NCBI GenBank assembly: GCA_938074445.1
Contig: CALJEK010000022.1
Span: 1-33,443 of the forward strand
DNA length: 33,443 nucleotides
Direction of reading: 5' to 3'
Source of the DNA: Candidatus Kryptoniota bacterium
Lineage (GTDB): Bacteria; Bacteroidota; Ignavibacteria; Kryptoniales; Kryptoniaceae
Each line of letters starts with the position of its first letter. Positions within the stretch are counted from its first letter, which is position 1. A program made the position numbers and the translations under genes. Below, piece after piece: positions 305 through 1,921 of this stretch. The notes beneath the pieces are model-generated. The model worked only from the letters and a program-made list of their open reading frames with translations. It was not told the DNA's origin and searched no databases.

Positions 305-1111
305 TCACTTCACCAAAACCATCTTCTTAACACTTGAAAACTTGCTCGTCGTCAAACTGTAAAAATACACACCACTTGGCAAATCAACCGCGTCAAACCT
401 TATCACCTTTCCAAAACCAGCGCTCATAAACCCATCATAAAGCGTCGTGATTTTTTCTCCAAGTGAGTTAAAAATTTCGACCTTAACATTTCCATTCTCG
501 GGCAAGTCAAAAACTATTTGTGTGGCAGGGTTAAATGGGTTTGGGTAATTCTGATAAACTGTAAATGTTTTTGGAATTTCATTTCCTTTATTTTCAACAA
601 ATGTTACAACATCGATTTTAAAATCTGGCGCAAAATTCCATGCATCACCTGAAGTTGAACCATTGGAATTAACCGAGTTACCAACTGCATAAATTGTAAT
701 CGGTCCTGGGGTATCTGGGGCTTTAAATTTAAATTCAAAAGTCACAGCCCCACTCACTGGTTCTTTTGGCGATGTATGAGTTAATTCGTCGCCAATCTTT
801 TGTAAATCCGACTCTACGGGAGATAGCGTTCCCGAGCTCGCTGCTATGTTCACCCCAGCTCTATCCAGCGGTCCACCGCTGATTGAAACTCTATAAGTAG
901 CCTCTTGCCCCGGGGATAATGAATTTGGTCCAGAAATAGAGACATTTACAGAGGGTGTCGGGGAATTTCCATGTCAAGTGCAACCATTCCCGTTTTTTCT
1001 TGTTTTTCCGGTTATCCCCGTTGAATAGGCGTAAAATAGAAAAGAGACTAAAACGATCAAATAGACTATTAAATTGGGTTTGAAAGATTTATTGTTTAAT
1101 GATTGACGCAT
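305..1111 (-). CDS. Secreted choice-of-anchor V-like protein with T9SS type A sorting domain and an in-frame TGA at a CXXCH motif
   Basis: From ATG at 1111 (an in-frame ATG at 1123 is also possible) the frame encodes a basic start, a membrane/signal segment at about residues 13-30, then GITGKTRKNGNGCT, a TGA codon at codon 46 (976-974), and HGNSPTPSVNV. The frame then stays open to a TGA stop at 305. Cys44-Thr-TGA-His47 reads as a c-type heme motif CXXCH with the second Cys replaced by TGA. After it come a beta-rich domain (SISGPNSLSPGQEATYRVSI) and, in the last 80 or so residues, a classic T9SS type A C-terminal domain opening with NYPNPFNPATQI. Proteins of this kind are exported by the Sec and T9SS systems and attached to the surface. 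The region on both sides of the TGA is clearly coding and has no frameshift, so the lesion, if it is one, is a single base. Options: selenocysteine, recent nonsense mutation, or sequence error. A gene caller would start it falsely at a GTG at 853. Confidence 0.75.
931..971 (-). promoter_or_regulatory. Stem-loop directly downstream of the in-frame TGA (possible SECIS-like element)
   Basis: Counting the U of UGA as 1, mRNA bases 6-12 pair with 40-46 (7 pairs, two of them G-U) and bases 18-21 pair with 33-36 (GACA/UGUC). This leaves an 11-base apical loop and an asymmetric internal loop. The position is what bacterial SECIS elements require, immediately 3' of the UGA with the loop starting about 20 bases away. 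The loop does not start with the G usually seen, and weak hairpins are common in such DNA. Function unproven. Confidence 0.3.
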
Positions 1112-1163
1112 AACAGCACCCATGCTTTGTTTTTAAAATTAATAACCAAATGCAGTTAGAAGT

Positions 1164-1195: not shown

Positions 1196-1921
1196 CTAAG
1201 AAAATAATCTGTCTTGTTCTGGTTTTGTTTTAGTTCCCGGTTCTATTTCACCTCGGCGGAGTGCGTTGACAAGCATATGGGCTTGGCGAGTTGGCTCCGG
1301 AATTCTATAACCGCGGATTGTGGACAAAATTATTTTTATTGAATTTTCAAGTGTAATTTTATGACCTATTGAGACAAAAACAGGTTGAACTTCGTCACGG
1401 GTTCTTAAAACAGCTCCAATTATTTCCCCCGAGTCATATAGATAAGAATAAGCTCCAGCCTTTGGAGAAGGTTCTTCATATCTTCCAACGAGCAGGCTTT
1501 TTGCGCATCCAATGGTTGGTTTATCAATTAACACCCCAAAATGTGAAGCGATACCAAATCTTCGTGGATGTGCGATGCCTTGACCATCGATGATTACAAC
1601 GTCGGGCTCAATTTTAATTTTTTCCCACGCTTTTATCAAAGCAGGGGATTCTCGAAATGACAAAAGTCCAGGTATGTATGGAAAATTTACCTCGGTTATC
1701 AAAAGGGACCTTTCAACTTCTTCAAGTTCTGGAAATTTTAAAATGACAATCCCAGCATAGACCACATTTGAACCTTTATCAAATGATATATCCGCCCCAG
1801 CAATGTAGCGGATTTTCCCCTCCAGAGGCTCAATCCTTACGAGATTTCTAAGTTCATTTTGTATCTTTACGGCTTCTTCTGGGGTCACATCCCAGCGGTG
1901 TAAAATTCTGTAATTTGGCAT
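1196..1921 (-). CDS. nfi: Endonuclease V (deoxyinosine 3'-endonuclease)
   Basis: Cuts DNA at the second phosphodiester bond 3' to deoxyinosine and so starts repair of deaminated adenine; it acts in the cytoplasm with Mg2+. The 241-residue product is a little longer than the usual 220-230. Family residues are visible with constant spacing to the Thermotoga enzyme: Asp44 in AGADISF, Tyr82 in PYIPGLLSFRE, Glu91, Asp112 in IDGQGIAHPR with His118, Lys141, and His215 in TRQAH. The start is the ATG at 1921; no clear ribosome site precedes it. The last 15 or so residues (Lys/Gln/Asp-rich) are an unconserved tail. The gene is divergent from the M28 lipoprotein gene and faces the T9SS gene across a hairpin. 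Inosine repair would be useful in an organism living at high temperature, where deamination is faster (inference). Confidence 0.95.
   Translation of the reverse strand: MPNYRILHRWDVTPEEAVKIQNELRNLVRIEPLEGKIRYIAGADISFDKGSNVVYAGIVILKFPELEEVERSLLITEVNFPYIPGLLSFRESPALIKAWEKIKIEPDVVIIDGQGIAHPRRFGIASHFGVLIDKPTIGCAKSLLVGRYEEPSPKAGAYSYLYDSGEIIGAVLRTRDEVQPVFVSIGHKITLENSIKIILSTIRGYRIPEPTRQAHMLVNALRRGEIEPGTKTKPEQDRLFS

Follow-up and report, generated by a model that had tools for sequence, protein, structure and literature searches.

A single in-frame TGA at a conserved cysteine codon probably marks a recently disrupted choice-of-anchor V gene in Candidatus Kryptonium

An accessory gene of the genus Ca. 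Kryptonium, encoding a T9SS-exported choice-of-anchor V protein, has probably been hit by one recent opal stop in the genome described here, and the outcome is most likely a null allele. The gene lies on the minus strand at positions 305 to 1111 of the window, by which we mean the whole stretch of 33,443 nucleotides that was analysed. The TGA is present in a frame that is otherwise intact, the same codon specifies Cys in all aligned relatives, no selenocysteine (Sec) apparatus was detected and TGA is used as an ordinary stop. It appears that the TGA is a true allele rather than a base error. The source bacterium is one of hot springs, and the gene, which encodes an exported surface protein, most likely represents ordinary gene breakage within a known surface-protein family rather than a new selenoprotein.

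On the minus strand, the frame begins with the ATG at 1111, runs for 45 codons, meets the TGA at 976-974 as codon 46 and continues for 222 sense codons to the TGA stop at 307-305; its 268 codons are otherwise open. With the base composition of the window, an open run of 222 codons would arise by chance with a probability of about 2e-7. The residues around the stop read Cys44-Thr45-(TGA)46-His47 (971..982, minus strand), so that a single residue separates the two motif positions of the C-X-C-H site of the family. Two of the 111 single-base paths to any stop land on a Cys codon, as do two of the 36 paths to TGA. The position of the TGA on a Cys codon is the one honest point in favor of recoding, and we weighed it lightly because the site was chosen on account of that coincidence.

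When the TGA was read as a residue, the protein matched the choice_anch_V profile NF041895 over residues 19-162 (2.3e-52, 177 bits, cut-off 42), and the score of this domain ranged from 169 to 177 bits. The match covers 626..1057 on the minus strand with the one TGA inside it. Further along, residues 189-265 (317..547, minus strand) matched the T9SS type A sorting domain TIGR04183 (1.3e-10, 41.1 bits, cut-off 23). The read-through frame matches both profiles, so that it is a genuine coding frame before as well as after the TGA. These results bear out much of the preliminary description, which had reported the in-frame TGA with the frame open for 222 codons beyond it, a choice-of-anchor V-like identity, a T9SS sorting domain at the C-terminal end and a false GTG as the start that automatic annotation would take; a mechanical ORF does start at the GTG at 853. 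The window copy resembles the other NF041895 proteins with a T9SS type A tail in its domain, signal segment, C-X-C-H position and sorting tail, but it differs from them in carrying a TGA at the second Cys of C-X-C-H, which was found in no other among the matches listed. An AlphaFold model built with 6 sequences (mean pLDDT 74.7, pTM 0.54) consists of one N-terminal helix followed by beta strands. We claim no fold family for it: the 50 Foldseek rows listed are heterogeneous, with RbmA, transglutaminases and antibody fragments among them, and none has a TM-score above 0.32. In a profile search of solved structures, the best match was a T9SS sorting domain (E = 0.012).

At the position of the TGA, all 38 aligned relatives have Cys (22 TGC and 16 TGT), the nearest congener included, and in every one of them the following residue is His. 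The set consists of 29 loci from the class search, which gave 30 with the window copy counted, and nine from the relatives search; four more of the latter (L018-L021), which repeat genes already included, and matches to the T9SS tail alone were left out of the alignment. Four further relatives from the named collection (L047, L048, L050 and L051) have Cys and His there too. The spacing of the motif is CXCH in 35 of the 38 relatives, CXXCH in two and CX3CH in one, and two Cys were counted in the aligned stretches of 32 of the 39 rows. Also conserved are an E-L-T-H block, with its His in 35 of 39 rows, and D-x-W-N (36, 37 and 38 of 39). A Cys in the homologues is required of a Sec position, and a Cys codon hit by a nonsense mutation would show it just as well. 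A UGA shared by more than one species was not found, since the window copy was the sole family member with a TGA inside among the matches listed, with a match in at least 169 of 294 genomes in the class search and in at least 108 of 395 in the phylum search. In the available part of PMC1914089, pseudogenes and sequencing errors without an in-frame stop shared by homologues of other species were excluded as false positives, a rule that we followed here. Another choice_anch_V member of the class (G167:C5:63585-63986) has two TAA inside its match, so that this copy too may be disrupted, unless the TAA codons are a frame artefact.

The assembly measures 2.28 Mb in 53 contigs and is 93.99% complete, and the window is bases 1-33443 of its contig C22. 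SelA (TIGR00474) had no match in this genome. The best SelB match scored 192.5 bits, below the cut-off of 242.25, and was a 406-aa ORF that reads as EF-Tu and adjoins EF-G; the best SelD match scored 75.2 bits, below the cut-off of 125, and was a 356-aa ORF that reads as the thiamine-monophosphate kinase ThiL. SelB was above the cut-off in none of 61 genomes, the own genome included, and the searches for SelA, SelD and tRNA-Sec covered the own genome only. The tRNA-Sec model RF01852 gave 19 matches, one of them just above the cut-off. ARAGORN named the top eight as Arg, Ser, Ser, Leu, Gly, Tyr, Leu and Leu tRNAs, and the remaining eleven fall on tRNA genes of RF00005. With RF00005, 42 tRNA genes were found and all were named by ARAGORN, the tRNA-Trp having the anticodon CCA. 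None of the 42 has the anticodon TCA (150 of 190 and 150 of 228 first-look candidates were scored), in a tRNA set that has gaps, since the search also missed tRNA-Ile(GAT), Ala(TGC) and Ser(GCT). Among 14 control genomes, matches above the cut-off occurred in five for RF01852, two for selB, one for selA, two for selD and all 14 for RF00005, and E. coli is among the control genomes for each model. The set of selA, selB and selD that is expected of a bacterium with selenoproteins was thus not recovered from this assembly of 94% completeness.

By general folding against shuffled sequences, no stable SECIS-type hairpin was found directly after the TGA. The fold of the 60 bases from the TGA on had a z of +1.22, 188 of 200 shuffles being as stable or more so, and a 53-base variant gave +1.00 and 172 of 200. 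In the copy of the congener, which has Cys there, a fairly stable hairpin of -15.6 kcal/mol (z -1.75, 12 of 200 shuffles) was seen at L018:2111-2172 on the minus strand, and the window copy is without it. The 30 other ORFs of the window that were taken as genes end with TAA in 18 cases, TGA in nine and TAG in three. A different genetic code, with TGA read as Trp or Cys, was rejected because TGA ends these nine ORFs and no tRNA with the anticodon TCA was found among the 42.

The window copy and its orthologue in the congener are 76% identical, with a dN/dS of 0.162 before the TGA and 0.149 after it, and their alignment holds one gap of a single codon and no frameshift. The lesion would accordingly be young compared with the divergence of the two copies, or else an error. 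If it is an allele, the mutation appears to be of recent origin: neither a second stop nor a frameshift interrupts the remaining frame, and the mean dN/dS is about 0.15 on both sides. Where the outgroups agree, there are 17 private residue changes in the window copy and 17 in that of the congener. In residues 1-168, window-only changes number 16 and congener-only changes 7, in a split made after seeing the data, and this could be a weak hint of relaxed constraint. An old pseudogene is not supported overall, in view of the equal number of private changes.

Translation initiated at the ATG at 1111 would terminate after residue 45, yielding the signal or membrane segment only. The mechanical ORF of 182 aa from the GTG at 853 (851..853, minus strand) would start within the domain and without an export signal. 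Since neither product would amount to an exported domain, a null allele is most likely, and we infer that no useful product would be made. It is unlikely that this GTG is a functional start. In-frame GTG codons at 853, 757 and 745 lie within 330 bases of the TGA, but all come after the signal segment and no clear Shine-Dalgarno (SD) site was seen by eye, and an internal restart was rejected. NF041895 matches the genome once, so no second intact copy was found. The 20 bases before the ATG (1112..1131, minus strand) show weak SD-like pairing with the anti-SD string, at -4.2 kcal/mol, the weakest of nine, as the eight intact relatives range from -5.4 to -11.0. However, 24 of the 30 other ORFs in the window pair more weakly than this and 6 more strongly. 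The weak site proves little, because this genome uses SD sites sparingly.

The gene is accessory in the genus. Its upstream neighbor, an endonuclease V-like gene (1196..1921, minus strand; nfi, named by reading), was found in all seven genomes of the genus, and an intact orthologue of the interrupted gene lies beside nfi in one of the six congeners (G001), so that with the window genome (G000) two of seven have the gene there. In the other five, no match was found in the fetched flank of nfi, which reached up to 1.5 kb (687 bases in L201). Two of these assemblies are less complete (G002 78%, G005 71%), and their nfi neighborhoods were read directly. NF041895 has matches in four of the seven genomes, the own one included: in G001 the orthologue is accompanied by a second, divergent member, while G002 and G006 have divergent members only. 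The block of nfi and the gene is 81% identical between window and congener over 305-2594, and the downstream neighbors differ. In the five other congeners (L199-L203), a different convergent ORF follows nfi.

The TGA might instead be a consensus base error in the draft assembly, with an intact gene in the living population. We consider this the main rival reading, possible but rather unlikely. One changed codon in an otherwise intact and constrained frame is what such an error would leave, and the codon is about 1 kb from a contig end in a draft of 53 contigs. However, there is no homopolymer run at 974-976, and no disruption of other ORFs in the window was noticed by eye. The SD-like site that is weaker than in eight relatives and the accessory nature of the gene also speak for a true allele. 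Both a strain- or species-specific nonsense allele and an assembly error would show an in-frame stop in one genome with uninterrupted homologues, as observed; what sets this case apart is that the stop happens to fall on a Cys codon. The preliminary description had itself allowed for a base error or a nonsense mutation of very recent origin. Two of the three outcomes that it had named as refuting the Sec reading were observed, namely Cys in all 38 aligned relatives with the window genome alone disrupted, and no Sec machinery found in the genome; they support its alternative.

Its main proposal, that Cys-Thr-Sec-His forms a heme or redox motif of a new kind on an exported protein, found no support: the aligned relatives all have Cys, SelA, SelB and SelD gave nothing above the cut-off, and none of the tRNA genes found has a TCA anticodon. 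The motif, which had been named CXXCH, is of the C-X-C-H kind. A Sec at codon 46 would fit the usual pattern of Sec/Cys pairs, and the available part of PMC13188914 lists cytochrome families, such as the multiheme ExtKL, and the CXXCH-containing family GSU2204 among the selenoproteins of bacteria, which are alike in having an in-frame TGA at the Cys position of their relatives. They differ from the window copy, for which no Sec machinery, no stable hairpin and no second species with a TGA were found. Allowing for the gaps in the tRNA set and for an assembly completeness of 94%, we hold an exported Cys-Thr-Sec-His protein to be extremely improbable. The same is true of the wider idea that the UGA is decoded as an amino acid by a Sec system missing from the draft, or by some other route, which would give the choice-of-anchor V family its first exported protein with Cys-X-Sec-His. 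Very unlikely, too, if slightly less remote, is partial readthrough of the UGA by tRNA-Trp, which would yield small amounts of complete protein with Trp at residue 46. UGA followed by C is a leaky context in E. coli, the base after the in-frame TGA is C and a tRNA-Trp is present; however, TGA ends nine of the 30 other ORFs, and Trp would probably be no functional substitute for a Cys that all 38 aligned relatives have. A recent nonsense allele thus remains the reading that we prefer.

With this reading, a false selenoprotein candidate is removed, and the checks that settle such cases are the decoding machinery, the aligned column and the neighborhood in congeners. The available part of PMC4737851 makes no mention of stop codon, pseudogene, opal, cytochrome or genetic code, and that of PMC9039060, which has single-cell genomes of hot-spring Kryptonium, does not mention nonsense, pseudogene or stop codon.

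The mildly interesting remainder is the intact family itself, T9SS-exported proteins with a beta-rich domain and conserved C-X-C-H and E-L-T-H. In the literature searched, we found no experiment on the ligand of this domain, be it heme, metal or a disulfide. The CXXCH heme motif of c-type cytochromes is present in two of the 38 relatives, and CXCH, which 35 of them have, is among the heme-motif patterns of one pipeline quoted in the available part of PMC11218250. A single residue between the two Cys, as seen in most of the NF041895 proteins aligned (L018, L127-L156 and others), is atypical of c-type heme. All seven genomes of the genus have cytochrome c assembly proteins (PF01578), which only permits covalent heme. 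Two of the PF01578 matches (G006:C25:16678-17190 and G002:C2:96882-97388) have one TAA inside each, which may be an effect of the profile end.
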